Origin: Gammaproteobacteria bacterium
Lineage (GTDB): Bacteria > Pseudomonadota > Gammaproteobacteria > Steroidobacterales > Steroidobacteraceae
Direction of reading: 5' to 3'
DNA length: 64,000 bases
Assembly: GCA_016874235.1 (NCBI GenBank)
Contig: VGUJ01000007.1
Span: 1 to 64,000, forward strand
Program-made: the position numbers and the translations under genes
Notes under the pieces: model-generated
What the model was told of the DNA's origin: nothing
The model's database searches: none
Seen by the model: the letters and a program-made list of their open reading frames with translations, nothing else
In this document: piece by piece, positions 3,219 to 42,813 of the stretch
Numbering within the stretch: the stretch's first letter is position 1
Layout of the letters: the number at the start of each line of letters is the position of its first letter

Positions 3219-3257
3219 GCGGACGGCTTGTGATAGGATTCGCGCCCCGTCGGCGAC

Positions 3258-3334: not shown

Positions 3335-3365
3335 GTTTCGAGGGATCCCTATGAAAAAAAAGGGT

Positions 3366-3384
3366 TGATATCACCATAATATCA
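3366..3384. repeat. Inverted repeat TGATAT-caccata-ATATCA in AT-rich intergenic region
   Basis: Perfect 6-bp arms read directly from the sequence. Confidence 0.6.
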
Positions 3385-3402
3385 GTCTAACGTCGACACC
3401 TC

Positions 3403-3421
3403 AGAGCCCAGTCCGGGCTCT
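3403..3421. repeat. Hairpin AGAGCCC-agtcc-GGGCTCT upstream of SPFH gene
   Basis: Perfect 7-bp arms; no T-tract follows on the + strand. Confidence 0.55.
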
Positions 3422-3445
3422 CCCGCCAAGGAGCGAGCGTCGACC

Positions 3446-4411
3446 ATGTCATCCCCCTCTCTGAGTCCGTCCCGTCCCGTCAGCCAAGAGCGTGAAGTCG
3501 CCGTCATGAGCGGCTGGCTCGCGCTACCGATCGTCATCGCGATCCTCCTCCTCGGTATCGCCGCCTGCGTCGGGGGAGAGCTCGACGATTCACCGGGGCT
3601 GTTCGGCATGGGTGTCGCGCTGATCGTCCTGTTCTTCATTTCCTTTGCGGGTTTTTTCACTCTGCAGCCGAACGAGGCGCGGGTGCTCGTGCTCTTCGGT
3701 GACTATAAGGGCACCGTTCGGAAGGAAGGGTTCCACTTTGGCAACCCGTTCTACTCGAATGGCAGTTCGACTCACGTAACGAACAAAGACGGCGCGACCG
3801 TCACGGTCAAAAAGAATCCACGCATGAAGATCTCATTGCGTTCGCGCAACATGAATGGCGATCGCCTGAAAGTGAATGACAAGCAGGGGAACCCCATCGA
3901 GATCGCGGCTGTCGTCGTGTGGCGTGTACAGAACACGGCTCAGGCGATGTTTGATGTGGATGACTACGAGGAATACGTGCGGATCCAGTCGGAGTCGGCG
4001 GTCCGTCATCTTGGCAGTCAATACGCCTACGACCATGGCGAAGAGCACGAAATCACCTTGCGCAGCGGTACGGATGAAGTGTCGGAGGCCTTGCAGGCTG
4101 AGCTGCAGACTCGCCTTGCGCCGGCCGGCGTCATCGTTGAAGAAGCCCGTCTCACGCATCTCGCCTACGCGCCGGAAGTGGCGCAAGCGATGCTGCGTCG
4201 ACAACAGGCCGAGGCCGTACTCGCGGCGCGACAAAAGATCGTGCAAGGCGCCGTGAGTATGGTCGAAATGGCGCTCACCGATCTCGCCCGTCGCGGGGTG
4301 GTCGAACTCGATGCCGAGCGCAAAGCCGCGATGGTGAGCAATCTCATGGTTGTGCTCTGTGGCGACTCTGAGGCCAAGCCCGTGATCAACACCGGTACGC
4401 TCTACGGCTAA
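3446..4411 (+). CDS. SPFH/Band 7 (prohibitin-like) membrane protein
   Basis: Two N-terminal TM segments then QPNEARVLVLFGDYKGTVRKEGFHFGNPF...AVVVWRVQNTAQAMFDVDDYEEYV...LAYAPEVAQAMLRRQQAEAVLAARQKIVQGAV. Confidence 0.9.
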   Translation: MSSPSLSPSRPVSQEREVAVMSGWLALPIVIAILLLGIAACVGGELDDSPGLFGMGVALIVLFFISFAGFFTLQPNEARVLVLFGDYKGTVRKEGFHFGNPFYSNGSSTHVTNKDGATVTVKKNPRMKISLRSRNMNGDRLKVNDKQGNPIEIAAVVVWRVQNTAQAMFDVDDYEEYVRIQSESAVRHLGSQYAYDHGEEHEITLRSGTDEVSEALQAELQTRLAPAGVIVEEARLTHLAYAPEVAQAMLRRQQAEAVLAARQKIVQGAVSMVEMALTDLARRGVVELDAERKAAMVSNLMVVLCGDSEAKPVINTGTLYG

Positions 4412-4430
4412 GGCGACCGCCGAGTCTCTC

Positions 4431-4649
4431 GTGGCCGAGCGCAAGTCGTTTTTGATGCGGATCGATCCCGCGCTTTGGCGCGAGATCGAGCGTTGGGCAG
4501 CCGATGAGCTGCGCAGCGTGAATGGTCAGGTGGAGTTCATTCTGCGCGAGGCCATCAAGCGGCGAGGGGTAACGCTCACGGAGTCCGACCCGACGGCTGT
4601 TGACGACGCCTCGCGCGACGCATCGGGCGAGACGACGAACGAGAACTGA
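4431..4649 (+). CDS. Small ribbon-helix-helix (Arc-like) DNA-binding protein
   Basis: 72 aa, MAERKSFLMRIDPALWREIERWAADELRSVNGQVEFILREAIKRRG: RHH pattern; GTG start. Confidence 0.75.
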   Translation: MAERKSFLMRIDPALWREIERWAADELRSVNGQVEFILREAIKRRGVTLTESDPTAVDDASRDASGETTNEN

Positions 4650-4686
4650 AAACGCTTTTGCGAGACTGCGGTCTCGTGAGGTCTCA

Positions 4687-5409
4687 TCAGGCGAGCGTGT
4701 GGAACACGCTTTGAACGTCGTCGTCTTGTTCGAGTTTGTCGATGAGCGCGAGCACCTCGGCGGCATCGGTCTCGGATAGCTCGGTGGGCGCCATCGGGAT
4801 GTACTCGTGCTCGGCTTTGAGCGGCACGATCTTGCGCGCTTCGAGCGCTTCCTGAACGCGACCGAAATCCTCGAAGGCGCAGCGCACGACCAGTTGAGGC
4901 TCGCCTTTTTCGCCCGTGCTTTCGCCCATTTCATCGAGCCCGTGATCGATGAGGTAGAGCTCGAGGTCATCTTGGTCGATGCCGGTGGGATCGAGTCTGA
5001 ACACACCCATCTTGCGAAACATGAACGAGACGCTGCCGTTCGTGCCTAGGTTACCGCCGCCTTTCTGAAAAGCATTACGGACGGTGGCAACGGTTCGTGT
5101 GGAGTTGTCGGTTGCCGTTTCGACGAGCAGTGCAATGCCGTGAGGTGCGTACCCTTCGTAGATTACGGTCTCGTAATTCGTGGCATCGCGACCGGAGGCG
5201 CGTTTGATCGCCGCCTCGACCTTGTCCTTCGGCATGTTGATCGCACGGGCGTTCTGCAAGATACGACGCAGCGTCGGGTTCGACTGCGGGTCGGGACCCC
5301 CCGACTTCACGGCCATGTTGATGTCTTTGGAGATACGCGCGAACTGTTTGGCCATCTTGTTCCAGCGGGCGAACATGGTGGCCTTGCGAACTTCGAATAT
5401 ACGACCCAT
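4687..5409 (-). CDS. YebC/PmpR-family transcriptional regulator / translation factor
   Basis: [71 protein letters not shown]. Confidence 0.96.
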
Positions 5410-5428
5410 AGGGGCGCTATGGTAACGG

Positions 5429-6400
5429 TCAGGGCGTGGGCGGCGCCATCGGACGCGAGGGCTCGCCGCCGCCCGGTGTAAAGGTGTCGGAGCGATTCAG
5501 GGCCTCTTCGGTGGCCTTGTTGAGCACCACGATGCTGATGCGGCGATTGATAGGGTTGCTCGGGTTCTGGGTATCGAGTCGGACATATGAGGACATGCCG
5601 ACAACCCGAGCGACTTTGTCGTCGGCGACCCCGCCCTCGACGAGCACACGTCGAGCGGCGTTCGCGCGATCTGCGGAGAGTTCCCAGTTGCTGTACCGCG
5701 AGCGCGCACCACCCATGAAGGGGGTGTCATCAGTATGGCCGGAGATACTCAACCGATTATCGACACCCTCTAGGGATTTGCCCACTTCGAGCAATAGATC
5801 TCGTGCATACGGTTTGATGGCTGTCCCGCTCAAGTCGAACATCGGACGATTTTGCGCATCCACGATCTGGATACGAAGGCCCTCGGTCGTGATATCGATC
5901 AGTAGCTGCTCGCGATACTTTTGCAGAATCTCGCTCTTCTCGATGGCAGCGAGTAGCTCTTTACGAATGTCTTGAAAGCGCTTGGTCTCGCTGGTTTCAC
6001 CCGTGAGCGCACGGGGTGTACGCAGCTCGTCTCGAGGCCCGGGCGAGGAGGGAGTCCCCGCGCCGGATTCGGCGATCGGTGAAGGCGCCGAGGCCGTGAG
6101 TCCCCCGCGCAGTTCGATGGGGCTCGTACTCGCGCCTCCTGGGCCATCTTGTCCGGGTGCCGGAATCGGCGCAGCGCCGCGTTCCATGCTCGGATTTTTG
6201 AAGTATTCGAAAATGGCTGACTTTTGTTGATCGTTGGCCGAGGCCACGAGCCACATCACGAGAAAGAACGCCATGAGCGCAGTCACGAAGTCGGCGTAGG
6301 CTACTTTCCAAGCGCCGCCATGATGACCCCCGGCCACCACTTTTTTCCGACGGATGATGATCGGTCGTTTGTCGTCCGGTCCTTTGCCTTTCTTTGCCAT
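5429..6400 (-). CDS. motB: Flagellar motor protein MotB
   Basis: [32 protein letters not shown] plug/TM and OmpA-like [12 protein letters not shown] domain. Confidence 0.93.
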
Positions 6401-13496: not shown

Positions 13497-14129
13497 TCAG
13501 GCTCCGCGAGCGAGGTGAAGTAAATCCTCGGGTGTTCGCAGCCCATCGGGGCCCGCGGCCCCGTAGCCCCAGGCCGCCGAAAAAAATCGCAGGCCGTTGC
13601 CGAGAGCGGCGCTGCGATCTTCGGCTGAATCCCCCACCATCCAGGTCCGCGACGACGTCAGCGACTCGCGCTCCATCACTTCACGTACGAGTGCGGTCTT
13701 GTGCGGCGAGACAGGTTCGAGCGCATCGAGCGCGTAGATACCTTTAAACCATCGGGTCCAACCGAGATGATCGAGGATCAATCTCGTCGGTGCGATGCGT
13801 TTGTTCGTGACGATATGCAACGAGATTCGATGATCGACGAGCGCCTCGAGCATGGCGTGGACGCCGGGATACACCTCGGTCTGACGATAGCCACCACCGT
13901 CGTAAGCCTCGCGGTAAGCAGAGGCGAGCTGGGTGATGACGGCAGGATCCTCCGTACCCGCGAGTGTCGCGAGGGTCTTGGGTAGCGGGGGGCCGATGAG
14001 GCTCGGCGAGAGGGGGACTGCAGGCCGCAGACCCTCACGCGCAAGGGCGAGTTCGAATCCTGCGAGGATGCTTCGGGCAGAGTCGATCAGTGTGCCGTCG
14101 AAGTCGAAAAGGATCGCTCGCGGACTCAT
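13497..14129 (-). CDS. HAD-family hydrolase (phosphoglycolate phosphatase-like)
   Basis: MSPRAILFDFDGTLIDSARSI...VTNKR...WMVGDSAEDRSAALGNG. Confidence 0.9.
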   Translation of the reverse strand: MSPRAILFDFDGTLIDSARSILAGFELALAREGLRPAVPLSPSLIGPPLPKTLATLAGTEDPAVITQLASAYREAYDGGGYRQTEVYPGVHAMLEALVDHRISLHIVTNKRIAPTRLILDHLGWTRWFKGIYALDALEPVSPHKTALVREVMERESLTSSRTWMVGDSAEDRSAALGNGLRFFSAAWGYGAAGPDGLRTPEDLLHLARGA

Positions 14130-14140
14130 GGTGTATGCAC

Positions 14141-15925
14141 TCAAGCGGTGAACTGCAGTGCGGCGAGCCGCGCATAAAGCGGATTCGAGGCGATCAACTC
14201 TTCATGACTGCCCGTCGCGATGATGCGCCCGTGGTCCATTACGATGATGCGATTGGCTTTGAGCACCGTCGCGAGACGATGCGCGATGATGATCGTCGTG
14301 CGCGTCACCATGAGTTGCTCGAGCGCTTGCTGCACCACGCGTTCGCTTTCCGCATCGAGCGCGCTCGTGGCTTCATCGAGTAGCAGCAGCGGAGGATTCT
14401 TCAAAATGGCCCGCGCGATGGCGATGCGTTGCCGTTGGCCACCGGAGAGACGGGTGCCGCGCTCGCCGAGGAAGGTTTCGTAACCCTCTGGTAGCGCGCG
14501 GATGAACCCATCTGCCGCAGCGGCCCGCGCTGCAGCCTCGACTTCCTCGTCCGTGGCATCGGGCCGACCGTAGCGAATGTTTTCGCGTGCGCTCGTACCA
14601 AACAACACAGTGTCTTGGGGGACGAGACCGATGCGCTGGCGAACGGCCAACGGATCCGCCTCTGCAATATGGACGCCGTCGAGTAATACGCGGCCCGACT
14701 GTGGGTCGTAAAACCGCAGCAGCAATTGGAAGGTCGTGCTCTTGCCAGCGCCAGAGGGGCCCACAAAGGCGACGGTTTCGCCGGGTGCGATATCCATCGA
14801 GAATCCATCGAGCGCGGGTGTCTCAGATCGCGAGGGATAGTGGAAGCGCACGTTCTCGAAACGGACATGCCCCGCTTTAACGCCAGATTGCAGTGCGGGC
14901 ATCGGCAGGGCGTTGGGCGGGGCGATGATCGCCGGTGTCGCCTGCTGCAACTCGACCAGTCGCTCCATGGCGCCCGCTGCGCGCTGGACTTCGCTCCACA
15001 TCTCGCTCAGCGAGGCGGCAGCGACTCCGGCGTACACGGCGAAGAGCAGGAACTGCACGAGTTCTCCGCCCGTCATTTCTTTGGAAAGCACCTGATGCGC
15101 ACCGAACCACAGCACGATCGTGATGGCGGCGACGACGAGCGTGGTCGAGAGCGCTGTGATCCAGGCCCGTACCCGCGTACGCACGATGGCGACCTGGAAA
15201 CTTTCTTCGACGGCAGCATCGTAGCGACGCGTATTGAGGGACTCGAGCGTGAAGGCCTGTACGGTTTGGATGGCGTTCAGGGTTTCTCCGGCGAGTCCGC
15301 TGGTGTCGGCGATACGATCCTGCGAGGAGCGCGACAACTTGCGCAGCTTTCGACCGAGAGAGATCACCGGGACGATGACCGCTGGCATGGCGATGAGCAT
15401 GAGCCCCAGCAGCTTGAAGCTCGTGACCGCCATCATGACGATGGCGCCGATCAGATTGATGGTTGATCGCAGGGCGATCGAAATACCGGCACCGGAGATC
15501 GACTGCACCAACGTCGTGTCAGTGGTGAGGCGCGAGAGTACTTCGCCGGTGCGTGTCACTTCAAAGAATTGCGGATCCATGCGGATCACATTGCGATACA
15601 CGGCCTCTCGCACGTCCGCGACGACACGCTCGCCGAGCCAGGTGACGAGATAAAAACGCATCGCTGCGAACGCGCCGAACAGCACGGCGACGCCCAAGAA
15701 GGCGATGAAGTAGATATTGACCGTCTCGGAATTACCCGCGCTCATGCCTTTGTCGACGAGCTGCGAGAGCGCGACGGGCAGGGCAAGCATGGAGCCCGAA
15801 GCGAGCAGCAGCGCCACCATGGCCCAAGCGAGCACACGCCGATAGGGTTTGAGATAGGGCCAGAGCGCGGCGAGGGGGCGAACGGACTTTGCCTTGGGGC
15901 GCTCGGACGCGGAGGAATCAGCCAT
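14141..15925 (-). CDS. ABC transporter, fused permease/ATPase (exporter type)
   Basis: Six-TM N-terminus; Walker A GPSGAGKST, signature [14 protein letters not shown], Walker B LLLLDEATSALD. Confidence 0.93.
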   Translation of the reverse strand: MADSSASERPKAKSVRPLAALWPYLKPYRRVLAWAMVALLLASGSMLALPVALSQLVDKGMSAGNSETVNIYFIAFLGVAVLFGAFAAMRFYLVTWLGERVVADVREAVYRNVIRMDPQFFEVTRTGEVLSRLTTDTTLVQSISGAGISIALRSTINLIGAIVMMAVTSFKLLGLMLIAMPAVIVPVISLGRKLRKLSRSSQDRIADTSGLAGETLNAIQTVQAFTLESLNTRRYDAAVEESFQVAIVRTRVRAWITALSTTLVVAAITIVLWFGAHQVLSKEMTGGELVQFLLFAVYAGVAAASLSEMWSEVQRAAGAMERLVELQQATPAIIAPPNALPMPALQSGVKAGHVRFENVRFHYPSRSETPALDGFSMDIAPGETVAFVGPSGAGKSTTFQLLLRFYDPQSGRVLLDGVHIAEADPLAVRQRIGLVPQDTVLFGTSARENIRYGRPDATDEEVEAAARAAAADGFIRALPEGYETFLGERGTRLSGGQRQRIAIARAILKNPPLLLLDEATSALDAESERVVQQALEQLMVTRTTIIIAHRLATVLKANRIIVMDHGRIIATGSHEELIASNPLYARLAALQFTA

Positions 15926-15969
15926 CGGACGATTGTAGCGCGGTGGTCATCCGTGCGGCGCGCGACGGG

Positions 15970-17046
15970 TTACCTCAGCCGCAGGATGAGCTTGCCCGTG
16001 GTGCGACCGGATTGGATCGCCTCGAGCGCATCGAGTGCGCGATCGAACGGGAAACTCTCACCGATATGCGGTCGCTCGGGGATGAGTTCGAGCGTCGCAC
16101 GCATCGACTCCGGCAGTCGTGAGGCCTGTTCCCAAAGCCAGATCAGATTGAACGCGAGCATGCCTCGGTTGAGCGGAATCATGGCGAGAGGATCGAGACG
16201 AGGTCGTCTGAGGTAGTGCCACGCGAGTCGCAGGACGTTGGGTCGCTTACCCGTACCCATGAAGTCCGCTGCGCCATAGAGAACGTAGCGACCCTCCGGC
16301 GCGAGTCGGTCAAACGCGACACGAAAGCCCTCGCCGTAGACCGCATCGAGCACGAGATCGAATCCACCATGACCATAGTGCGCGAGCGCCGTATCGAGAT
16401 CTCGACCGAGAGCGGGGCTGCGGATCACGACCGTTGCGGGGTCGAGCGCGAAACGTTTGATGAGCCAGTCGCGCTTGTCGGCCCGGCCGACGACCGCGAT
16501 CGGTCTTGCCTGAAGATGACGCAGAGCATGCAAGGCGTTGAGGCCGACACCGCCCGCGGCCGATTGAACGAGGACGACGCTGCCGGCTCTGGCAGCGCCC
16601 AGTGGTACGAGTCCGTACCAGGCCGTCAGCGCCTGCACGGGATAGGCCGCAGCCTCCTCGAGGGTCCAACCGTCTGGAACCGGCCAGAGCGTGCGGGCGT
16701 CGACATTGACGTGCGAGGCGTAGCCGCCGAATCGCGTGAGCACGATGACCGCGTCGCCCTCACGCCAGCCGCTTACGCCGGCGCCGATCCGCCGAATACG
16801 GCCCGCGCATTCGAGGCCGGGAATAAAACTCCCTTTCGGCGTCGCGGAATAGAGGCCGAGACAGGCGAAGACATCGGCGAAATTCACGCCGACGGCTTGG
16901 ACCTCAACTTGGACTTCGCCGGTGGCGGGTGCCGCCAAAGGCTCTTCGACCCGCGAGAGCGCTGAGAGTGAACCGGCTTTGGGGATGCGCCAAACCTGGC
17001 GCGTCAAAAAATTAGTCGTGGACTCAGCGGGTCGTGGTGCGGTCAT
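15970..17046 (-). CDS. Zinc-type alcohol dehydrogenase/quinone oxidoreductase (MDR)
   Basis: MTAPRPAESTTNFLTRQVWRIPKAGS...VNFADVFACLGLY...VQSAAGGVGLNALHAL. Confidence 0.88.
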   Translation of the reverse strand: MTAPRPAESTTNFLTRQVWRIPKAGSLSALSRVEEPLAAPATGEVQVEVQAVGVNFADVFACLGLYSATPKGSFIPGLECAGRIRRIGAGVSGWREGDAVIVLTRFGGYASHVNVDARTLWPVPDGWTLEEAAAYPVQALTAWYGLVPLGAARAGSVVLVQSAAGGVGLNALHALRHLQARPIAVVGRADKRDWLIKRFALDPATVVIRSPALGRDLDTALAHYGHGGFDLVLDAVYGEGFRVAFDRLAPEGRYVLYGAADFMGTGKRPNVLRLAWHYLRRPRLDPLAMIPLNRGMLAFNLIWLWEQASRLPESMRATLELIPERPHIGESFPFDRALDALEAIQSGRTTGKLILRLR

Positions 17047-17455
17047 GCGCCCGAGCATACTGCGAGGGCAGCACCCCGGTGTAGCGCCTGAACATCCGAG
17101 CAAAGTAAGAACCGTCGTGGAAGCCGACGGCAAAAGCGATCTCGGTGACGGGCACCTTGCCCTCTTGCAAACGGTGACAGGCGGCGATGATGCGGTAGCG
17201 GAGCAGATACTCTCGGAAGGTGATTCCGTAAACGGCGTGAAAGCAGCGACTGAATTGGAATCGACTGAGTCCGCAATACGTGGCGATGAGATTGGCCGAA
17301 AACTTCTCGTGGTAGTGATCGCGGACGAAGTCGACGGCCCGAAGGACCCCGACATGCGAGGGGGCGAGACCGGCGGCCGCGCGCTCCACGTCCTTTGACA
17401 GGGGCAGTGTGACCGCTCGTAGCGAGCCCCCGGTACTCATGTCTTCAACCTTCAT
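17024..17455 (-). CDS. AraC-family transcriptional regulator
   Basis: Two HTH segments, GLSRFQFSRCFHAVYGITFREYLLRYRI...VPVTEIAFAVGFHDGSYFARMFRRYTGVLPSQYA. Confidence 0.88.
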   Translation of the reverse strand: MKVEDMSTGGSLRAVTLPLSKDVERAAAGLAPSHVGVLRAVDFVRDHYHEKFSANLIATYCGLSRFQFSRCFHAVYGITFREYLLRYRIIAACHRLQEGKVPVTEIAFAVGFHDGSYFARMFRRYTGVLPSQYARAHDRTTTR

Positions 17456-17589
17456 GGAACCGAAATAGTAGGCGGTCGAGACTGCTATTTCGATTAAGAA
17501 TTGGTAATTTAGTGCGCAATAAAATTGCATTTCCAGGTTTATGGTGGCCCCAAACAGGGCATTTCAGGGCGTTCGGATAAGATTGCGCC

Positions 17590-17901
17590 ATGACACAGGA
17601 CCCGACAGACGCTGCCAGCGGCTTCGACGCCGCGTTCACCGATGCGGTAAATCTCGGCAACCAAATTGCAGACCGCGACAAGGAAGCAGACCTCTGGGAT
17701 ATCGCTGACGGGTTGCTCGCCGGCGCCATTCAGTATTGGCTGTATTCGCGTCAGCCCTGCAAGGATCCGCGCTGTGTCGAATGTCTGCCGGTCAGCACGG
17801 CCGAGGGGCGCATGGCCGAGTTGCAGCGCCTCATCCGTCAGCTCTCTGAAGAGAGCGAATACTTCCACTCGCCGAACGATTCGAACGTCGGCAGAGCGTG
17901 A
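17590..17901 (+). CDS. Hypothetical small protein with CKDPRCVEC cysteine cluster
   Basis: 103 aa ORF in otherwise empty interval; plausible composition. Confidence 0.65.
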   Translation: MTQDPTDAASGFDAAFTDAVNLGNQIADRDKEADLWDIADGLLAGAIQYWLYSRQPCKDPRCVECLPVSTAEGRMAELQRLIRQLSEESEYFHSPNDSNVGRA

Positions 17902-17917
17902 TCGGCGCGGGATCTGA

Positions 17918-19198
17918 TCAGCGACTCACGTCCTCGAGCGCCGCTTCAAGAATCGCCAGGCCCTCCGCAAGCTCGGCATCGGGGATGGTGAGCGGCATCA
18001 AGAAGCGGATGACGTTCGAATAGACCCCGCACGACAGCAACACCAGGCCGCGGCGTCCGGCTGCTTGCACGAGCGCTTTGGTGAGTTCGGCGTCCGGTGC
18101 GTCGTGTCGACCGTCCTTGATGAGTTCCATCGCGATCATTGCGCCGAGGCCGCGGACATCGCCGATACATGACCATCGAGTTTGCAGATCGGAGAGTCGG
18201 GCGCGCACCGCGGTGCCCACGCGTATGGCACGCACGCAGAGCTGTTCGGACTCAATGATTTCGAGGACGGCGAGTCCCGCGGCGCAGCCGAGGGGCGAGC
18301 CCGCGTAGGTGCCGCCGAGTCCCCCGGGAGGAGGCGAGTCCATGATGGCAGCTTTTCCCGTTACGGCAGAGAGGGGTACGCCACCGGCGAGGCTCTTGGC
18401 GAGTGTGACGAGATCGGGCTCAACGCCTGAGTGCTCGATGGCAAACATGCGTCCGGTTCGGGCAAAACCCGTCTGAATTTCATCGACGATGAATACGATG
18501 CCATGCGTATCACAGATCGATCGCAGCGCGCGCAAAAACTCCGGTGGCGCGATGTAGAACCCGCCTTCGCCTTGAACGGGCTCGACGATGATCGCTGCGA
18601 CTCGTGCAGGATCGATGTCGGACTTAAACAGTTGCTCGAGCGCTGCCAGCGACTGCGCCGTACTGATGCCGTGGTACTCGATGGGGAAGGGGGCGTGGTA
18701 CACCTCGGGCAGCATCGAACCGAAACCCGCTTTGTAGGGTTGGACCTTACCGGTGAGCGTCATGCAGGCGAGCGTCCTCCCGTGGAACGCGCCACCGAAC
18801 GCAATGACGGCCGAGCGCTGCGTGTGATGGCGAGCGATCTTGATGGCATTCTCGATCGCTTCCGCACCGGTCGTCAGAAAAATGGTTTTCTTAGATGAGC
18901 GACCGGGAACGAGATCATTCAGACGCTCGGCGAGCGCGACGTAGTTTTCGTAAGGTGTGACCTGAAAGCAGGCGTGGGAGAGTCGCGCCATTTGTGCGGT
19001 GACGGCGGCCTGTACTTTGGCATGGAGATGCCCGGTGTTGAGGACGGCGATGCCGCTTGCAAAGTCGATATAGCGCCGTCCCTCGACGTCCCAAATTTCG
19101 GCGTTGCTCGCACGATCAGCGTAGACCTGCAATGAGTTGCCGACTCCGCGCGGTATGGCGGCAGCGCGTCGACGGGAAAGATCGGCATTAGTCGGCAT
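17918..19198 (-). CDS. Class-III aminotransferase (4-aminobutyrate transaminase-like)
   Basis: IFLTTGAEAIENAIKIAR...IVEPVQGEGGFYIAPPEFLRALRSICDTHGIVFIVDEIQTGFARTGRMFA. Confidence 0.93.
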   Translation of the reverse strand: MPTNADLSRRRAAAIPRGVGNSLQVYADRASNAEIWDVEGRRYIDFASGIAVLNTGHLHAKVQAAVTAQMARLSHACFQVTPYENYVALAERLNDLVPGRSSKKTIFLTTGAEAIENAIKIARHHTQRSAVIAFGGAFHGRTLACMTLTGKVQPYKAGFGSMLPEVYHAPFPIEYHGISTAQSLAALEQLFKSDIDPARVAAIIVEPVQGEGGFYIAPPEFLRALRSICDTHGIVFIVDEIQTGFARTGRMFAIEHSGVEPDLVTLAKSLAGGVPLSAVTGKAAIMDSPPPGGLGGTYAGSPLGCAAGLAVLEIIESEQLCVRAIRVGTAVRARLSDLQTRWSCIGDVRGLGAMIAMELIKDGRHDAPDAELTKALVQAAGRRGLVLLSCGVYSNVIRFLMPLTIPDAELAEGLAILEAALEDVSR

Positions 19199-29728: not shown

Positions 29729-30574
29729 TTAAAAGAGGGTCAGCACCCCGAGATAGGGGCTTTCGGCACCCAGGTCGAAGGCCAGGGTGACCCGTCCCGA
29801 GGTCCCCGCGGCCTCGAGCTCGTAGCCGCCGCTGCCCGGCGGTAGCCGATCGATCTTGAACTCGCCGAAGGTGTCGGTGATCGCCCGGCCGACCTCCCGT
29901 CCGGCCCGACGCAGGACGACGAGCACGCCCGGGGCGCATTCCTCGACCCCGCCAACGTGGTGGACCACGGTGCCCCCCACGAAGCACTGCGTCATCAAAT
30001 GGAGGTTTTTGTAATACACCCGGGGCCGCGTGCCGAGTTCCGGACGCTCGACCTGGAGCCCTTGTTGCTCGGCAAGCCGCTGCATCTCAGCGTCTTCGAG
30101 CCGGACCGTTTGGAAGACGTTCGTGGGGCAGGCCTGCTCGGCTCGTACTTTGTCCCAGCCGGCATCGAGCAGGTGGGCGTCGAAGATCCAGTGTTGAGGT
30201 AATTGTGTCTCTTCGTTCCACCACACGGCGCCATACGGGCAGGCGTCGACGATTTGTTTCTGACCCTTGGCTTTGACAGGGTCGATGATCACGATGCCGT
30301 CGGCCCGTTTCTGGACGGCGCCGTCGCGCGCGGCTTTCATGCAGGGCGCATCGTCGCAGTGATTGCACATGACGGGTTGAAAGTTCGCCTCGACGAGCGG
30401 GTAAGACCCGCGTTCCTTTCGACGGATGTCGAGCCAATGATGGCCCTGCGCCGGCTGTGCGGCGGCATAGCCCGGAAAGTCGTTGCCGGCGTGTTCATCT
30501 TTGACCGCGATGTAGCAGCTGCGGCAGTTGTCGCAGCGCTCGACGTCGACGATCAGGTTCCATTTCTTTGCCAT
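29729..30574 (-). CDS. Fe-S (beta) subunit of transhydroxylase-like molybdoenzyme, with C-terminal beta-barrel/carboxypeptidase-regulatory-like domain
   Basis: MAKKWNLIVDVERCDNCRSC...CNHCDDAPC...DACPYGAVWWNEE...ELGTRPRVYYKNLHLMTQCF; ATG overlaps the alpha-gene stop codon. Confidence 0.88.
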   Translation of the reverse strand: MAKKWNLIVDVERCDNCRSCYIAVKDEHAGNDFPGYAAAQPAQGHHWLDIRRKERGSYPLVEANFQPVMCNHCDDAPCMKAARDGAVQKRADGIVIIDPVKAKGQKQIVDACPYGAVWWNEETQLPQHWIFDAHLLDAGWDKVRAEQACPTNVFQTVRLEDAEMQRLAEQQGLQVERPELGTRPRVYYKNLHLMTQCFVGGTVVHHVGGVEECAPGVLVVLRRAGREVGRAITDTFGEFKIDRLPPGSGGYELEAAGTSGRVTLAFDLGAESPYLGVLTLF

Positions 30575-33540
30575 CACGCCGTCTCCGCGCGCGGTTGCCA
30601 CGTATCGATGCCGGTCCATTTCTCGATCTGGATCAGCGTGGTGTTGGGGCGAATGCCGTGCGTCTTGCGCGCGATCGCCTTGCTCGGGTTCAGCATGTTG
30701 ATGCAGCCGCCAAGGTCTGTGGATTTTCCGGGCTCGCCGACGGGTCGGTACTCGGCCGAGGCCGTCGAGGCCGAGATCACCCCGGGTCGTAGGCGATCAG
30801 TGATTTGCGCGGCACACACGACAGAGCCGCGGTTATTCCACAGACGGATGAGATCATCGTCGCGGATACCCCGTGCTTCGGCATCCTTGCGGCTGATGCG
30901 CGCGACCAGATAGTGGTGTCCGTCTTTGAACACACGATGCTCACGGATGTCGCGCACGCTCGAGCCTTCGTCATCACCCATGAGATGGAAGGGGTAACGC
31001 GAGTGAGGCGAGAGCAATTGCAGCGGGAACTCGGCGAGTTCCGGTTCGCGTTTGCCGTCTTCGTACACAGGCATGTACTGGTTGAGTGGCGGACGATCGG
31101 GGTCATCGATGCGCTTAAGCGTCGTGGCGATGAACTCGAACTTGCCTGAGGGCGTTTGCAGCCCTTTGCCAAGACCGCCGACATACTCTGAAGGCAGAGG
31201 GTAGGGCTCGGGCGTATCTTTTTTGCGCCCTTCATAAAACCAGCGATTGGCGGTGGGTGCGCGGGCCGACTCGGGATCGGGAGGGACTACGTAGTACCCC
31301 TTCTTCAAGAACTCGCGCCACGAGATTTTTTTGGCGAGATCAGAAGAGTCGAAGACGCGCTTGCACCAGTCGTATTCGGAGGTGCCGCCTTCGGAGTACA
31401 CCGAGCCCATGTCGAGCTTCTCCGAGATGGCGAGGAAGATATCGTAGTCGGACTTCGACTCGCCGAGCGGCTCGATCGCCTTGTGCTGCATCGTGATGAC
31501 GCGATGGTTATTCATCGAGTACATGTGGTGCACGTAGCCCGCGCCGACGTTGTACCACTCGCTGATATCCCAGCGCTCGAAGACCGTGCAGGCCGGCAAG
31601 ATGACGTCGGCGAAGGGTGTTTCGCCTTCCCACCACACCGACTGGTTCACCACGAACTTCAAGCTCTCGTGCTGATATGCCTTAATCCAGCGGTTCGAGC
31701 CGACCTGCGTGCCGAGCGAAGAGCTGCCGTATTTGTAGAGCATCTCGACGCGGACGTGCCCGGGTGAGGGGTAGCCGAAGGGGAAGAACTGTCCCTGGAT
31801 CGACGAGACGTCGGTGAGATAGCCCATCGCCTTGCCTTGGGTGATGGCCTCAGGGAACCACATGCGTGGAATCGCCTGACGGACCGAGCTCATGGTCACG
31901 ATGTGCGGCATGCGCTGGTAGTTGTTGGCTGAGTTCGCGCTCGCCATGAGCTCGCCCGAGAAGCTGCCTTCACCGTAGCCTGGGAAATAGAAATTGAAGT
32001 CGAGCGGCGCGCCGAACTGCAGATTGCCGAAGTTCGAGCCTGGGCGGCCATAACCCTGCATCGCGCCGAGGATGGTCATCATGCGCGCCCATTGCGCACC
32101 CATCGGGCTGCGGCCGGCGCCGCCGAGACCGACACCCCAACCCCCCGCGCCGAGGTAGGTTTTCTTTGAGCCCCACTCGCGGGCGAGTGCGCGAACGTCG
32201 CGCGCCGGCACGCCGGTTTCCTTTTCCTGCCACTCCGGCGTCTTCGGGATGCCGTCGCTTTCGCCGAGGATATAGGCCTTCCACTCGTCGAAGCCGGTCG
32301 TGCGTTCGGCGACGAATTTTTTGTCGTAGAGATTTTCGGTGATCCAGACGTGACAGAGCGCTTGAGCCATCGCCGCATCGGTACCGGGCTTGGGCGAGAT
32401 CCACTTGCCGCCGAGGTGTGCGGCGGTGTGATTGAGGTACGGGTCGATGTGCACCATCTTGATGCCGAGTTGCTTCGCCCATTCGCGACGCTCGGTTCCA
32501 TCGAAGCCGTACGTGGCATCGGGATCGCTCGACCAGAAGACGATCAGCTCGGCTTCTTTGAGGCAGTCCTCGACCGTGCCATAGAACTCAGGACATCCGA
32601 GACGCAGGCTATTACCCCAGTGGTGCATCGCGCCCCAGAACCAGCCTTCCCAGCTATCTGGCGTGTGCACGAGTTTGGTGACACCGATGAGGTTCCAGAA
32701 ACGGTTGAAGGCGCTCAGGTAGTGACCGAGATTGCCCCACTGGTGATGAGAGCCGTTGGCGACACAGATGGCGCCGGGGCCGACGGCCTTGGCGCGCTTG
32801 ATTTCTTTGCTGACGATTTCGAGAGCTTCGTCCCAACTGATGCGGACGAACTTCGACTTGCCGCGATTCTGGATGTTGCGTTCGCCATCCGGGTCGAAGT
32901 CAACGCGCTTCATCGGATGCAGGATGCGGTTCTTCGAATACACCATCGACTTGAGACAGAGGCCGTGCGTCGCGACGGTGGTCCGGCGGCTCGGCGTGAA
33001 CGTCTTCCCGCGCGCCGTGATCGACCAAGACGGCGCGTCGCTGTCGTCGAAGTCGATGGGCGTCGTGCGAATGATCTTGCCGTCTTTCACATAAACGAAG
33101 ATCGGTCCGCTGTTGGTGCCATTGGTGTAGCGGGTGACGCCGTCACCAATGTCGGTGCCGGCTTTCCAGGTGATCGTTTCGAGTCGCGTGAGGGTCTGCA
33201 TGAACCACACGGCGAGATCGTCTGGACCCTCGAGACCGATCTTGAAATTTTTGGCCGCATCGATGCGCTCGAGCATGTCGAACGGCGGCGTCAGGAAGTT
33301 TTCGGCAATTTCGCGATTCTTGAAATGGAGGGTGAGGTCGGGGGAGGCGTGCAGTCCCGCCCCGGAGCGAACCTTGCCACCCCGAAGCGCAATCCAGCGA
33401 CCCTCGGGGACGTCACGCAAGCGGAACTGCGCCACGAGATCGCATTCTTTGAGGCGTCTCGCGTAGTCGGGGTAAAGCTTCGACATGGCCCGCATGGCCT
33501 GCGGAATGCCCCAGAGCAGAACCGAAAGATTCATTGCCAA
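30574..33540 (-). CDS. DMSO-reductase-family molybdopterin enzyme, pyrogallol transhydroxylase-like large subunit, with N-terminal SCP2-like domain
   Basis: 988 aa; residues about 1-130 SCP2-like, then TNGTNSGPIFVYVKDGKII...SHHQWGN...PDSWEGWFWGAMHHWG...PLDFNFYFPGYGEGS; no N-terminal CxxCxxxC cluster motif; no Tat signal. Confidence 0.88.
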   Translation of the reverse strand: MAMNLSVLLWGIPQAMRAMSKLYPDYARRLKECDLVAQFRLRDVPEGRWIALRGGKVRSGAGLHASPDLTLHFKNREIAENFLTPPFDMLERIDAAKNFKIGLEGPDDLAVWFMQTLTRLETITWKAGTDIGDGVTRYTNGTNSGPIFVYVKDGKIIRTTPIDFDDSDAPSWSITARGKTFTPSRRTTVATHGLCLKSMVYSKNRILHPMKRVDFDPDGERNIQNRGKSKFVRISWDEALEIVSKEIKRAKAVGPGAICVANGSHHQWGNLGHYLSAFNRFWNLIGVTKLVHTPDSWEGWFWGAMHHWGNSLRLGCPEFYGTVEDCLKEAELIVFWSSDPDATYGFDGTERREWAKQLGIKMVHIDPYLNHTAAHLGGKWISPKPGTDAAMAQALCHVWITENLYDKKFVAERTTGFDEWKAYILGESDGIPKTPEWQEKETGVPARDVRALAREWGSKKTYLGAGGWGVGLGGAGRSPMGAQWARMMTILGAMQGYGRPGSNFGNLQFGAPLDFNFYFPGYGEGSFSGELMASANSANNYQRMPHIVTMSSVRQAIPRMWFPEAITQGKAMGYLTDVSSIQGQFFPFGYPSPGHVRVEMLYKYGSSSLGTQVGSNRWIKAYQHESLKFVVNQSVWWEGETPFADVILPACTVFERWDISEWYNVGAGYVHHMYSMNNHRVITMQHKAIEPLGESKSDYDIFLAISEKLDMGSVYSEGGTSEYDWCKRVFDSSDLAKKISWREFLKKGYYVVPPDPESARAPTANRWFYEGRKKDTPEPYPLPSEYVGGLGKGLQTPSGKFEFIATTLKRIDDPDRPPLNQYMPVYEDGKREPELAEFPLQLLSPHSRYPFHLMGDDEGSSVRDIREHRVFKDGHHYLVARISRKDAEARGIRDDDLIRLWNNRGSVVCAAQITDRLRPGVISASTASAEYRPVGEPGKSTDLGGCINMLNPSKAIARKTHGIRPNTTLIQIEKWTGIDTWQPRAETA

Positions 33541-33624
33541 CCTCCCAACGGAATCCTTGGAAAAACTACCACGGGTTCTGATTCGGCCGCGGCGGTCGCC
33601 GGGGACAGCCCACAGCGCGGTTGG

Positions 33625-36238: not shown

Positions 36239-37488
36239 AAGCGCTGATGCAGGAGCTCGCTCGCGCCGCACGGGCGGCGTCGCCGGTGCTCGCGTCCGCC
36301 TCACGCGAACAAAAGGACCGTGCGCTGCGTGCGGCGGCTACGGCGATTCGTCGTGACGCCTCAAAGATATTGGCTGCGAACGCGCAAGACATGCGTGCGG
36401 CCGAAGCGCGTGATCTCTCTGCGGCACTGCTCGATCGATTGCGTCTTGATGCCGCGCGTGTCGAGGCGATGGCCCGCGGACTCGAGGACATCGCCTCCTT
36501 GCCCGACCCGATCGGGCGAGTGCTCGCCGAGTGGACGAGACCGAACGGCCTGCGCATTGCGCGGGTCGCCGTTCCACTCGGTGTCCTCGGCATCATCTAC
36601 GAAAGCCGACCAAATGTGACGGCCGATGCGGGCGCGCTCTGTCTCAAGTCGGGTAATGCCGTGATCCTTCGGGGCGGCTCCGAGAGTCTGCATTCGACGG
36701 CAGCGATCCACGACTGTCTCGTGGCCGGCTTGCGAGAGGCGGGGCTTCCCGAGAGTTGCATTCAACGGGTTCGCGTGGCCGATCGTGAGGCCGTTGGCTT
36801 GATGCTCGAAGGTCTCGAGGGTGCCCTCAACGTCGTGGTGCCGCGCGGAGGCAAGGGACTCATCGAGCGCGTACGCCGTGAGGCGAGAGTGCCGGTGATC
36901 GGTCACCTTGATGGCAATTGTCATGTCTACGTCGATCGCGACGCCGATCTCGCGATGGCGGTCGCCATCACGCTCAACGCCAAGCTGCGGCGCACGGGCG
37001 TGTGTGGGGCTGCTGAAACCCTGCTCGTCGATCGCGGTGCACCTGCCGATTATCTTGGGGTGCTCGTACGCTCGCTGCTCGATGCGGGGTGCGTCGTGCG
37101 CGGCGACGCGTCGACGCAGAACGTCGATTCCCGCGTGACGGCTGCGTCCGAGGCAGATTGGGGGACGGAGTATCTCGATTCGATCATCGCGGTGAAGGTG
37201 GTCGAGGGTGTCGAGGAGGCGATGGCACACATCGCTCACTATGGTTCTTCGCACACCGAATCCATCATTACGAGCAACGATGCGACGGCGCGCAGGTTTC
37301 TCGAGGGCGTCGACAGCGCCATCGTGCTGCACAACGCATCGACGCAGTTTGCCGACGGCGGTGAGTTCGGCATGGGCGCTGAGATTGGCATCTCGACCGA
37401 TCGCTTCCATGCGAGAGGCCCGGTCGGGCTCGAGCAGTTGACGAGTTACAAGTACGTCGTGCGCGGCTCGGGTCAGATACGTCCTTGA
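36235..37488 (+). CDS. proA: Glutamate-5-semialdehyde dehydrogenase (gamma-glutamyl phosphate reductase)
   Basis: [39 protein letters not shown]...[12 protein letters not shown]; overlaps proB by 4 bp. Confidence 0.96.
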
Positions 37489-39125
37489 CGTTCGGATAGA
37501 CCGAGCGCGCCGCCCTTCAAAGAATAAACGTTCTCGAGGCCGCGATCGCGCAGGCTGCGAGCGGTGCCGAGGCTGCGCGCGCCCCGTGCACAGATGAGCA
37601 GGTAACGCCCTTCGGGCGGCAGGTTGCGCCCTGCGAGCAATTCACCCATTGGGACAGGCAGGGCAGCAGTCTCGAGCGGTGTCTCGTCGATTTCTTCGGG
37701 CTCACGAATGTCGACAAGCGAGTAGCCCTCCGCGAGAGCGCTCTGCAAGTCGTCGAACTCGAGTTCGAGCGGCGCGCGGCTGGCGTCTCGGCGTTCGCGG
37801 GCGGCGCATTGCAGCGCAAGCGAGGACGGCTCGCAGCCGCCGTCGCAGGCGGCGTTTCGGCGCGCGCGCAAGCGCGTTGTCGAGAGGCCGACGAGGTCGA
37901 CCGTCAGCAGCTCGTCGCCCAGTCGACCCGGCAAGCCCAGCACAATCTTGAGGGCTTCGAGCGCTTGCAGACCACCGAGCACGCCCGGCACGGGGCCGAG
38001 TACGCCGGCTTCGGCGCAGTTGCCCACGACGCCGTCGCGAGTGGCGTTTGGCCACAGGCAGCGCAGACAGGCGCTGTGCCGTGTCGGATCGACGACCTGC
38101 AGCTGACCTTCGTATTGGTGGACGCTTGCGAGCACGGCCGGCACGCCGAGCGACTGCGCGAGATCGTTGATCAAAAATTTGGTGGCGAAGTTGTCGGTGC
38201 AGTCGATGACGAGGTCGTGATGCGCGAGCAGGGTGGCGCCGTTCTCGATGTCGAGTCGACCGATGTGGACTTGGACGTCGACATCCGGATTGAGCGCGCG
38301 CACGCGGGCGGCGGCGAGTTCCGCTTTGGGTGTGCCGCAGTCGGCGAGGGCGTACCACGTTTGACGATGCAGGTTGGAGGGCTCGAGTCGATCGCCATCG
38401 ATGAGCGTGAGCCGACCAATGCCCGCACCAGCCAGATACTGCAGCACCGGCACCCCGAGACCGCCGGCGCCCACGACGGCGACGCGTGCGGCGCGCAGGC
38501 GCGCTTGTCCCGCGGCGCCGACTTCCCGAAGGTTCATTTGCCGTGAGTAATCGGGGACCCGAGGTGGTTCGACGAACTGACGATGCGTCGCGGCGGCGTG
38601 ATGTGTATGCTCGTGATGCGAATGTTCGTGATGGAAATGCGGCGAATGGGAGTGCGCATGATCGTCACTTGCGTGGTCGGCGTGGGCCGGCGTCCCCGCG
38701 CAGCGTTCGCAGTTGACCCAACCCGAATCACCGTCGACGTAGTGCTCTTTTTTCCAGATCGGCACGCGATGTTTCACTTCGTCGATGATGTAACGGCACG
38801 CCTTGAAGGCTTCGTCGCGGTGGCGGGCGCTCACGCCCACCCATACGGCGAGTTCCCCGAGGGCGAGATCGCCGACCCGATGTACGCAACGCGCATGGTC
38901 GACACCGAATCGCTCGCAGGCCTCGGCGATGATGCGTTCACCCTCGCGTACGGCGAGTTCGGCGAACGCTTCGTATTCGAGGTGACGCACTTCCCGACCT
39001 TCGTTGTGATTGCGCACCCAACCTTCGAACGCGGTATAGCCCCCGCACGTCGGATCCGAGAGTTCTGTGCGCAGCGACTCAGGATCGAGCGCCGACGAGC
39101 TGAACCGAAAGCGCACCGGACTCAT
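37473..39125 (-). CDS. MoaE - His-rich linker - MoeB/ThiF-like E1 - rhodanese fusion
   Basis: MoaE domain ([12 protein letters not shown]), 15 His in 34 residues, E1 domain ([19 protein letters not shown]...[14 protein letters not shown]), rhodanese CARGARS loop, one uninterrupted frame. Confidence 0.92.
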
Positions 39126-39132
39126 GGCGAGA

Positions 39133-39987
39133 TCAGCCTCCGGCTACCGGTGGGATGAACACGATGGAGTCGTGGTTTTGCAGCGGCTGACTCCAATCAC
39201 CGAACTCGGCGTTCACGGCGACCTTGAGCATGTCTGCAGGTAGCGTGAATCCGTATCGAGTTTGCAGCTCGCCATAGAGCTCGGCGGGGGTGCGTGCGGC
39301 GGTCGTCAGCGTTTCTTCGCTGCGACCGGCTTGTTCGCGCAGCAACGCGAAGTACTGCACGCGCACGCTGCGCGAGGGGAGAATGTCGGGTGAAAGGGCC
39401 TGCATGGAGGTCCAATAGTCCGCGGTCGAGTTGACGTTGTCGAGAGCCTCGGCGCGCAACGGCTCGAGCAGCGTCGCGTGATGTTCGATCAGGAATTTCC
39501 GTGGGCAGCTCTTACCCCTGGTCGCGTAGCGGGCAAGGGCGGTGACCGACCTCGGTTCATACACCGCGCAGAGCGGCTCGGGCAGGCCGTCGTGGGTCGA
39601 GCGGAAGGCGGTCGCATAGCCCTGTCGGTCACGCCGCTCGAGCAGATAACGAAGTACCGACCCATCGAGAAAAGGCAAATCACAGGCGAGCACGAGCCAG
39701 GTTGCGTGGGGGTGCGCGCCTTGCGCAGCGAGGATGCCGGCGAGCGGACCGAGGTCTGTCTGCTCGTCCACGATTTGTGGAAATCTTTGGCGCAGCGGCT
39801 CGTTCACCTGATCGGGGCGTACCGAGACGAAGGCGCGTTGCGTGACCGATGCGAGCAATTCGTAGGCGTCTTCGAGTTGGGTGCGACCGCGGTATTCGAG
39901 CGCTGCCTTGTCGCGCCGCATCCGCGAACTTCGTCCGCCGGCGAGCAACAACCCGAATACGGGCGCCTCGAGCTGCGCGAGGGTCAT
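39133..39987 (-). CDS. MobA-like guanylyltransferase fused to MoaD (ends in GG)
   Basis: [30 protein letters not shown]...LACDLPFLDGS, then RSVRVQYFALLREQAGRSEETL...IVFIPPVAGG-stop. Confidence 0.92.
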   Translation of the reverse strand: MTLAQLEAPVFGLLLAGGRSSRMRRDKAALEYRGRTQLEDAYELLASVTQRAFVSVRPDQVNEPLRQRFPQIVDEQTDLGPLAGILAAQGAHPHATWLVLACDLPFLDGSVLRYLLERRDRQGYATAFRSTHDGLPEPLCAVYEPRSVTALARYATRGKSCPRKFLIEHHATLLEPLRAEALDNVNSTADYWTSMQALSPDILPSRSVRVQYFALLREQAGRSEETLTTAARTPAELYGELQTRYGFTLPADMLKVAVNAEFGDWSQPLQNHDSIVFIPPVAGG

Positions 39988-40520
39988 CAGCGTCTCCGGG
40001 AAACGTTTCGCCGACCGCCTAATTTGTCGAGCAGGCGAACCGACTCGATCACGATATCGTGGGAGAGGGCTTTGCACATGTCGTAGATCGTGAGTGCTGC
40101 CGCTGTGGCGCCCGTCAGGGCTTCCATTTCGACGCCCGTCTTGTGCGTGGTCGCCACGGTGCAGCGGATCGTGACACGGGTCTTCTGTGCATCGATGTCG
40201 ATGTCGCAGTGTTCGATCGGCAAAGGATGACAAAACGGGATGAGCTCGTGCGTGCGCTTGACGGCTTGCACGCCCGCGATGATCGCCGTGTCGAACACGG
40301 GGCCTTTTCGCGTTCGATGCCCCGTGGCGGCCAACGCCCGAGCAACGGAACTTGGCAGTTTGATACGCGCCTCAGCCGTCGCGCTGCGACGCGTGACCGC
40401 CTTGTCACTCACATCGACCATGGTCGGTCGTCGCGCGGCATCGAGGTGGGTGAGGCCCGCAGGGGCACGATCACCCGTCGCCTTTTTCTCTTTCGGATTC
40501 TTTCTTTTAGCCTGAGCCAT
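39987..40520 (-). CDS. moaC: Cyclic pyranopterin monophosphate synthase MoaC
   Basis: [31 protein letters not shown]...[11 protein letters not shown]...[23 protein letters not shown]. Confidence 0.96.
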
Positions 40521-40529
40521 GGTGTCGTC

Positions 40530-41591
40530 TCAGCCGCCGATGTGGAACATTTCAACCTTGCGGCCGGACAGCGGCATTCCGCCGCGCAGTTCGCTGTAGC
40601 GGTCACCGCGTCGTCGCCAAGTTCCTGAAAGAAGGTCGAGCAACTCCGCATCGCTTGCGCCGGCGCGCAAGGGTCCGCGCAAGTCAGCGCCGATGGTCGC
40701 GAACAGACAGGTGTAGAGCTTGCCATCCGATGAGAGACGAGCGCGCGAGCAGTCCTGACAGAACGGCTGCGTGACCGAAGAAATGAAACCGACCTCGCCA
40801 GCGCCGTCGTCGAAGGCATACCGTTCGGCGACTTCGCCGCGGTAGTCACGCTCGCGAGGTGAAAGCGACCAACGCTGATGAATGGCGGCGAGCAGGTCGC
40901 GTGAGGGTACGACGAGGTCGGCTTGCCACTCGTTGCGGTTACCGACATCCATGTATTCGATCAACCGAACGATGACGCCGGTGCCGCGAAAATGCTCGAT
41001 CATCGGCAGTACGGTGTGATCATTGACGCCGCGTTGTACGACGACGTTGATCTTGATCGGTGTCAGTCCCGCGCGTTGTGCCGCCTCGATGCCCGCGAGC
41101 ACTTCCTCGACGCCGCCGAAGCCTCCACTCATTTTTTTGAATACCTCAGCATCGAGACTGTCGAGACTGATGGTAATGCGAGAGAGGCCTGCGGCCTTGA
41201 GCTCGGTGGCGTATTTGGCGAGCAGTACTCCATTGGTCGTGAGGGCGATGTCATCGATGCCGGGCAATGTCGAGAGGTCGCCGATGAGATCCGAGAGATT
41301 CGGGCGCAGCAGCGGTTCGCCGCCCGTAATACGCAACTTACGTACACCGAGCGAGGCAGAGAGGCGTGCGAGGCGCACGATCTCATCGAAGTCGAGCCGC
41401 TCTGCCGACTTCAAAAATCGGTAGCCGTCATGGAAGGTGTGCTGCGGCATGCAGTAGGGGCAGCGAAAATTGCAGCGATCCATCACCGAGATACGCAAGT
41501 CACGCATCGGTCGGCCGAGCGTGTCGCGCGGACCTTCGGTTGAGCGCAAGGAGATCAGCTTGTGTTCGGTCACACTCATGGCTTTTCGCAC
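40530..41591 (-). CDS. moaA: GTP 3',8-cyclase MoaA (radical SAM); start may be internal Met at 41579
   Basis: LRISVMDRCNFRCPYCMP (CxxxCxxC), RITGGEPLLRPNL, C-terminal FCQDCSRARLSSDGKLYTCLF. Confidence 0.96.
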   Translation of the reverse strand: MRKAMSVTEHKLISLRSTEGPRDTLGRPMRDLRISVMDRCNFRCPYCMPQHTFHDGYRFLKSAERLDFDEIVRLARLSASLGVRKLRITGGEPLLRPNLSDLIGDLSTLPGIDDIALTTNGVLLAKYATELKAAGLSRITISLDSLDAEVFKKMSGGFGGVEEVLAGIEAAQRAGLTPIKINVVVQRGVNDHTVLPMIEHFRGTGVIVRLIEYMDVGNRNEWQADLVVPSRDLLAAIHQRWSLSPRERDYRGEVAERYAFDDGAGEVGFISSVTQPFCQDCSRARLSSDGKLYTCLFATIGADLRGPLRAGASDAELLDLLSGTWRRRGDRYSELRGGMPLSGRKVEMFHIGG

Positions 41592-41592
41592 C

Positions 41593-42813
41593 TTACCAGC
41601 GGCAAAGTCGCGTCACGAAGCCCTTGGCGTACGTATTGGGTCCAGGCGGCAACTCCACGAAGCCATCGGTGCCGGTGAGTGAGGAGAAATCGCCGGAGCC
41701 ATTGGTGGGGCAGGGGTGTGCCCAAAGACGACCCCACTCATCGCCCTGCACCCGCACAGGTATGAAGCTCGTCATTGGGACCTTCACCTCGATCGGTGCT
41801 GCGATGGCGATTTTCTCAACAGAACGCACGGTCTCGCCCATCGCCGCATACACGCCCGGAATGACATAGCGTGCGAGACAGACGAGTGTCGAAACCGGGT
41901 TGCCGGGCAGCGCGAAGACGGCGGTCCCCGTCGGTCCGATGCCGAACCACATGGGCTTGCCGGGACGCTGCGCGATTTTGTGGAAGATGGGTCGTACGCC
42001 GAGTTCGGCCAGTACGCGCGGTACGAGATCGAGCTGACCCATCGACACGCCGCCCGACAGGATGAGTACATCGTGCGTATCAAGATGAACCCGCAGTCTT
42101 CTGCGCAGCACGTCGAGATCGTCGGGCAGGTGATCGTCGGCGAGACGCTGAAAGCCGCGTCGACGTAGCCCCGAGACGATGCCGTAAGCATTCGATCGGC
42201 GAACCTGATGGGCCTCGATCGGATCACCGGGTTCGATGAGTTCGTTGCCCGTTGAAACAACCAAGATCGTCGGCTGCGCGCTCACACGGATGCGTGCCAT
42301 GCCCGCGCTCGCGGCGACGGAGATCTCGGGGGCGCCAAGTAGCATGCCCGACGAGAGCAGTAGCGCACCCTGGGTGGTGTCGGAGCCGCGGCGATGGATG
42401 TTCTGCCCGGCGGTGACACGAGCGGGTTCTTTGAGTGTGGCGATCCCGTCGTGAACATCGATTTGTTCGATCGGCACGACGGTATCGCAACCGGTGGGCA
42501 GCACGGCGCCCGTCATGATCTCGATGGCGTAATGGGCGGTCTCGAGCTTCAGTGGTGGTTCGCCCGCCGCTTGCATCGCTTGAATACGCAACGTGGTTTT
42601 ACCGCCGCGCAGCCCGGAGGAATCGAGCGCGATACCGTCCATGGCGACCCGATCGAAGGGGGGTTGATCACGCTCGGCATACACATGCTCGCGCAAGACC
42701 GCACCGGTGCACTGGACGAGCGGCAAGGACTCGATCGGCAGACAGGTGAACTGTTGACCGATGAGTGCATCGGCCTCGGCAGGAGAAATCATGCCGGGAG
42801 TGTATCCCGGCAT
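41593..42813 (-). CDS. moeA: Molybdopterin molybdotransferase MoeA
   Basis: QPPFDRVAMDGIALDS...EIMTGAVLPTGCDTVVPIEQ...LSGGVSMGQLDLVPRVLAELG...FALPGNPVSTLVC. Confidence 0.95.
   Translation of the reverse strand: MPGYTPGMISPAEADALIGQQFTCLPIESLPLVQCTGAVLREHVYAERDQPPFDRVAMDGIALDSSGLRGGKTTLRIQAMQAAGEPPLKLETAHYAIEIMTGAVLPTGCDTVVPIEQIDVHDGIATLKEPARVTAGQNIHRRGSDTTQGALLLSSGMLLGAPEISVAASAGMARIRVSAQPTILVVSTGNELIEPGDPIEAHQVRRSNAYGIVSGLRRRGFQRLADDHLPDDLDVLRRRLRVHLDTHDVLILSGGVSMGQLDLVPRVLAELGVRPIFHKIAQRPGKPMWFGIGPTGTAVFALPGNPVSTLVCLARYVIPGVYAAMGETVRSVEKIAIAAPIEVKVPMTSFIPVRVQGDEWGRLWAHPCPTNGSGDFSSLTGTDGFVELPPGPNTYAKGFVTRLCRW

Follow-up and report, generated by a model that had tools for sequence, protein, structure and literature searches.

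The 64,000-nucleotide stretch of DNA analysed here, which we refer to as the window, encodes on its minus strand the large subunit of a molybdoenzyme related to pyrogallol-phloroglucinol transhydroxylase (TH) and resorcinol hydroxylase (RhL), in which residues 1 to about 122, as shown by structure modelling, adopt the SCP2 fold. This fusion (SCP2-TH) is a real and widespread architecture within the TH/RhL family and is apparently undescribed, with RhL compared by published phylogeny only; our literature search for an SCP2-molybdoenzyme fusion found no published description. With a probability of about one half, the enzyme would act on polyphenols as a (trans)hydroxylase that needs no oxygen and is largely redox-neutral, its SCP2 domain handling a phenol of more hydrophobic character. 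Oxygen-independent hydroxyl chemistry on polyphenols is known from strict anaerobes and denitrifiers. If our reading is true, this chemistry would be widespread in Proteobacteria of lakes, oceans and soils, some of it encoded on megaplasmids of rhizobia and Burkholderiales, and the protein would offer a rare example of a molybdoenzyme with a lipid-carrier domain attached.

The fused gene and its N-terminal domain

The gene, its putative ribosome-binding sequence and its first domain are located as follows:

30574..33534, minus strand: SCP2-TH large subunit, 986 aa plus stop (ATG 33534-33532; TGA 30576-30574)
33541..33546, minus strand: Shine-Dalgarno-like GGGAGG, read from the sequence, 6 nt before the ATG
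33169..33534, minus strand: SCP2-fold N-terminal domain, residues 1 to about 122 (homologue Pfam matches, AlphaFold model, Foldseek)

The open reading frame as listed covers 30574-33540 of the minus strand and begins with a TTG at 33540. The ATG at 33534 (residue 3 of that frame) is the likelier start, since GGGAGG lies 6 nt upstream of it and Met is found there in 62 of 71 aligned relatives. The large-subunit stop codon and the small-subunit ATG overlap in the sequence TGATG, from which we infer that the two subunits are probably translationally coupled.

The AlphaFold model of the N-terminal domain, built from 47 sequences, had a pLDDT of 87 and a pTM of 0.77. It consists of a helix (3-20), a second helix (22-29), four strands, two helices, a strand (99-102) and a final helix (105-122). 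When this model was compared with the PDB by Foldseek, the first 36 matches, with E values from 1e-5, were all SCP2-superfamily structures, among them alkylsulfatase C-terminal domains, AF1534, UbiJ, SCP2-like 2, and rabbit and human SCP2. The fold is shared with the C-terminal domain of the alkylsulfatases Pisa1 and SdsA1, UbiJ-SCP2, AF1534 and SCP2-like 2 at E values of 1e-5 to 1e-3 and with 9-24% identity; unlike these structures, the query domain is N-terminal and fused to a molybdoenzyme. The SCP2-like fold that the earlier note had proposed for residues 1 to about 130 was thus confirmed by structure comparison, while the Pfam search it had suggested gave a divided answer: PF02036 (SCP2) was not matched above the gathering score by the query protein alone, and was matched weakly by 21 of the 47 homologous N-terminal domains (best E value 0.0014). 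Alkyl_sulf_C was also matched weakly, by 11 of the 47. The model of the whole protein had a pLDDT of 71, and the surroundings of its active site were too weakly modelled to trace any route between the carrier domain and Mo.

The missing Pfam match for the query alone, together with the lack of any match to the PF02036 profile across the window's genome, could suggest that the N-terminal region is not SCP2 and that its resemblance is due to chance, or that the fusion is artefactual. We consider this highly improbable, and in effect refuted, given the SCP2 fold matches, the Pfam matches of the homologues and the 99 distinct in-frame fusions. The single reading frame reported in the earlier note recurs in dozens of independent genomes, and the frameshift or assembly error it had asked about was checked and rejected, because the same in-frame fusion is found in those 99 distinct homologues from many independent genomes.

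Catalytic region, distribution and phylogeny

The catalytic region and two of its positions, whose codons were counted from the ATG at 33534, are located as follows:

30577..33138, minus strand: catalytic Mo-bisPGD region, residues 133-986 (Pfam AhtL-like_1st, Molybdopterin, Molydop_binding)
32653..32655, minus strand: Ser294 (S296 of the listed frame), predicted Mo ligand, equivalent to TH Ser175 by alignment; invariant in 99 of 99
32719..32721, minus strand: Tyr272 (Y274 of the listed frame), at the TH Arg153 position by alignment; aromatic in all SCP2-bearing members

AhtL-like_1st, Molybdopterin and Molydop_binding were matched with 100.2, 111.2 and 53.4 bits, respectively, all exceeding the cut-off. 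The closest solved relative of the query is the Pelobacter TH, a molybdenum enzyme that transfers hydroxyl groups from one plant-type phenol to another; it matched residues 135-977 with 919 bits and 52% identity across 837 aligned positions, the alignment being less certain around 466-474. The two proteins share the Ser ligand of Mo (TH S175) and the residues H144, D174, W176 and Y404, and both have an Fe-S small-subunit partner and lack an N-terminal Fe-S site. They differ in that the Pelobacter enzyme has no SCP2 domain, and in the substitutions, from TH to query, of Y152 by H, R153 by Y, W354 by L, F468 by T and C557 by V; with Y, L, T and V at 153, 354, 468 and 557, the query departs from the pocket of TH sensu stricto. 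The roles assigned to individual TH residues follow the TH structure of 2004. Judging from its sequence, the query is a member of the TH/RhL (PgtL) subfamily of MopB enzymes, as it has the three Pfam domains, the Ser ligand and the equivalents of His144, Asp174 and Tyr404. Identity with the steroid C25-type or ethylbenzene dehydrogenases was rejected on account of this Ser, the Mo ligand of that group being Asp (PMC10100899).

What the earlier note had said of this region was upheld: the catalytic part is of the TH type; the usual N-terminal Fe-S cysteine motif is missing, with AhtL-like_1st at residues 145-199; and the residue pairs it had given (H265/H144, D295/D174, S296/S175, Y522/Y404 and Y274/R153, listed frame/TH) are all correct. 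The catalytic residues it had described as conserved include the His144, Ser175 and Tyr404 equivalents, which are invariant in the SCP2-bearing clade. The changed substrate pocket it had postulated is likewise supported: in every intact sequence, presence of the SCP2 domain goes together with an aromatic residue in place of Arg/Lys at position 153.

A survey of how widely the fusion occurs identified 99 distinct carriers, about 50-100% identical, in dozens of genomes and including plasmids. Scanning a single genome from each species gave 79 loci, in which full-length relatives share 52-93% identity with the query and fragments reach 99%. Additionally, full-length relatives at 54-57% identity are present in eight plasmid records from Sinorhizobium, Ensifer, Rhizobium, Burkholderia, Paraburkholderia, Cupriavidus and Salipiger. 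Matches were obtained in 30 of 217 genomes of the window's own family and in 2 of 369 in a random sample of the class; a random sample of the phylum also gave few. Based on the few matches in these two random samples, the distribution of SCP2-TH is patchy.

In a tree of the catalytic part, the SCP2-bearing proteins form one clade, whose sister comprises the Pelobacter TH and L129, an 855-aa protein without the SCP2 domain. The sole apparent exception, L009_810aa, begins at a contig edge. The tree alone cannot decide between gain and loss, and gain of the domain on this lineage would be the simpler course, since more distant TH-like groups are also without it. The L009 contig carries a tandem of two SCP2-TH-family large subunits (2-2400 and 3406-6363), with a small subunit after each; the contig edge truncates the first large subunit.

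Position 153 is Tyr in 86, Trp in 11 and His in 2 of the 99 SCP2-bearing sequences, and is Arg or Lys in every intact TH-like sequence without the domain. This switch counts as one event, as it is confined to one branch of the tree. L090, which has Tyr153 and no in-frame domain, is a gene split by insertion: in this Sinorhizobium terangae locus (13965-18460), the SCP2 and catalytic parts are separated by about 1.4 kb, and the insert carries an ORF that by eye resembles an IS110-type transposase. In one metagenome-assembled genome (L072, 7971-10945), the large-subunit frame is broken into frames of 630 and 454 aa, likely by a frameshift.

The Fe-S small subunit and the electron relay

The partner subunit is encoded directly downstream:

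29729..30574, minus strand: Fe-S small subunit, 281 aa, with two complete [4Fe-4S] ligand sets and the third lost (V, W, D, A)

When 105 distinct small subunits were aligned, their cysteines fell into columns paired in the manner usual for ferredoxins. At columns 22, 130, 133 and 149 the window's small subunit has V, W, D and A, whereas all four positions are Cys in the partners of TH-like proteins that lack SCP2. They are also Cys for most SCP2-TH in phloroglucinol-type clusters (the L137, L140, L154 and L155 group), with L142 and L143 as exceptions. By the ferredoxin pairing rule these four cysteines bind a single cluster, and the window's small subunit would thus be missing all four ligands of one [4Fe-4S] cluster and no others, retaining two ligand sets where TH-like small subunits, such as that of the L137 relative, have three; the earlier note had not remarked on this loss. 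W and D occupy columns 130 and 133 in 85 of the 105 sequences, and a full fourth ligand set is also present in the most distant group (L131-L136). Based on the ligand-set counts of these groups, the relay appears to have been reduced stepwise across the family, from four clusters to three and then two, a series that allows testing whether TH chemistry needs an electron relay.

The state of the relay bears on whether the enzyme exports electrons. A resorcinol-hydroxylase-type enzyme would hydroxylate phenols with a water-derived hydroxyl group and export two electrons via the Fe-S subunit. Together, RhL and TH make up a single family with Ser as the Mo ligand, and by published phylogeny alone RhLS of Azoarcus anaerobius falls in the same MopB subfamily (PMC10100899). 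The two ligand sets retained in the small subunit and the many carriers that, by record names, are lake or ocean Gamma- and Alphaproteobacteria are consistent with such an enzyme; one relay cluster was lost in the window's lineage, however, and no electron-acceptor or membrane subunit was recognised beside SCP2-TH. We regard this type of reaction as rather unlikely here. The domain may also be present in RhL, in which case the architecture would be that of a characterised enzyme, with the carrier domain simply unremarked in the literature searched. Redox-neutral transhydroxylation would be more likely than electron-exporting hydroxylation, since the relay is partly dismantled and the gene has no such subunit beside it.

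Gene neighbourhoods and proposed function

Six loci in five genomes (G1346, G1230, G753, G748 and G749) have the SCP2-TH pair together with a full or partial set of a cyclase (PF04199), a cupin, an SDR, a 3-hydroxyacyl-CoA dehydrogenase (3HCDH) and BKACE. Phloroglucinol-type clusters also surround SCP2-TH in G1370, G1373 and G1377, which belong to a sister genus in the window's own family, giving eight genomes overall. The best PDB match of the cluster SDR is 5g4k, which we take to be the Clostridium phloroglucinol reductase. The neighbourhoods in these eight genomes share their enzyme kinds with the phloroglucinol cluster of Clostridium scatologenes (PGR, DPGC, TfD, TAL), whose pathway has been reconstituted (PMC10470551); a cluster of this type is absent beside the window's gene. 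On the L137 contig, a domain-less TH with Arg153 (2164-4728) and an SCP2-TH with Trp153 (16205-19174) flank one phloroglucinol-type cluster. In G1370, G1373 and G1377, SCP2-TH is divergent from an adjoining domain-less relative, and their islands (L185-L191) contain three TH-like molybdoenzyme classes with the cyclase, SDR, 3HCDH and BKACE.

On the Burkholderiales and Rhizobiaceae plasmids, SCP2-TH is accompanied by genes for glyoxalase-fold (VOC) proteins, an acyl-CoA synthetase, a hydrolase of the FAH family and porins of the OmpW or FadL type. One Burkholderiales glyoxalase-fold neighbour resembles extradiol dioxygenases, with matches to the HpaD, catechol 2,3-dioxygenase and BphC models that are all below cut-off. 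Among gammaproteobacteria closer to the window, 23 loci have a glyoxalase-fold gene on the upstream side, and in 13 a TorD-like chaperone is encoded nearby.

The FadL/OmpW and acyl-CoA synthetase neighbours, found in one subclade, would fit a hydrophobic substrate. The phloroglucinol-type clusters argue for the use of ordinary small polyphenols by the relatives within them, and since those genomes have the same fusion, a hydrophobic substrate is probably not needed for all members.

UbiJ-type SCP2 proteins have been proposed to act as assembly scaffolds or membrane contacts, and the domain could likewise be a structural or targeting module that does not handle substrate. UbiJ-SCP2 structures are among its nearest folds, and several genomes have ordinary small-polyphenol genes beside the fusion, both of which agree with such a role. 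Gain of the domain nevertheless coincides with the pocket changes at 153, 354 and 468, which would not be expected if the domain were only a scaffold, and we judge this role unlikely.

The proposed (trans)hydroxylase would belong to the TH/RhL family and work in the cytoplasm as a Mo-bisPGD enzyme of two subunits, the larger of which includes the SCP2 domain. This domain would bind phenols that bear a hydrophobic alkyl, acyl or aryl part, and either raise their local concentration at the pocket or hand them over; the receiving pocket would have become less cationic and more aromatic, and its Mo centre would, like that of TH, transfer or add a hydroxyl on the phenolic ring without O2. The product would proceed to ring opening, by the phloroglucinol route in some lineages and probably by extradiol-type cleavage in the plasmid-bearing relatives. 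We put forward only tentatively the more specific proposal that SCP2 captures alkyl-, acyl- or prenyl-polyphenols and passes them to the aromatic-pocket TH-type Mo centre for O2-independent transhydroxylation, with a vestigial Fe-S relay, in otherwise aerobic bacteria.

A phloroglucinol pathway in the window's own genome was rejected, since neither a BKACE protein nor a PGR-like SDR at E 1e-45 was found in this assembly, which is 95% complete, so that these absences are not absolute. O2-independent ubiquinone hydroxylation was made unlikely by the two Ubi hydroxylases above the family cut-off in the same genome. SCP2-TH is one of three PF00384 proteins encoded there, and molybdenum-cofactor genes lie 4-10 kb from it in the window:

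37473..42813, minus strand: molybdenum-cofactor genes (MoaE/MoeB-like, MobA/MoaD-like, MoaC, MoaA, MoeA), from translations by eye and MoeA homology

Within 37473-40233 of the minus strand, a 550-aa ORF has, by eye, a MoaE-like start, a MoeB/ThiF-like part and a rhodanese-like end, and a 366-aa ORF appears to combine MobA-like and MoaD-like parts, with GG at its end.
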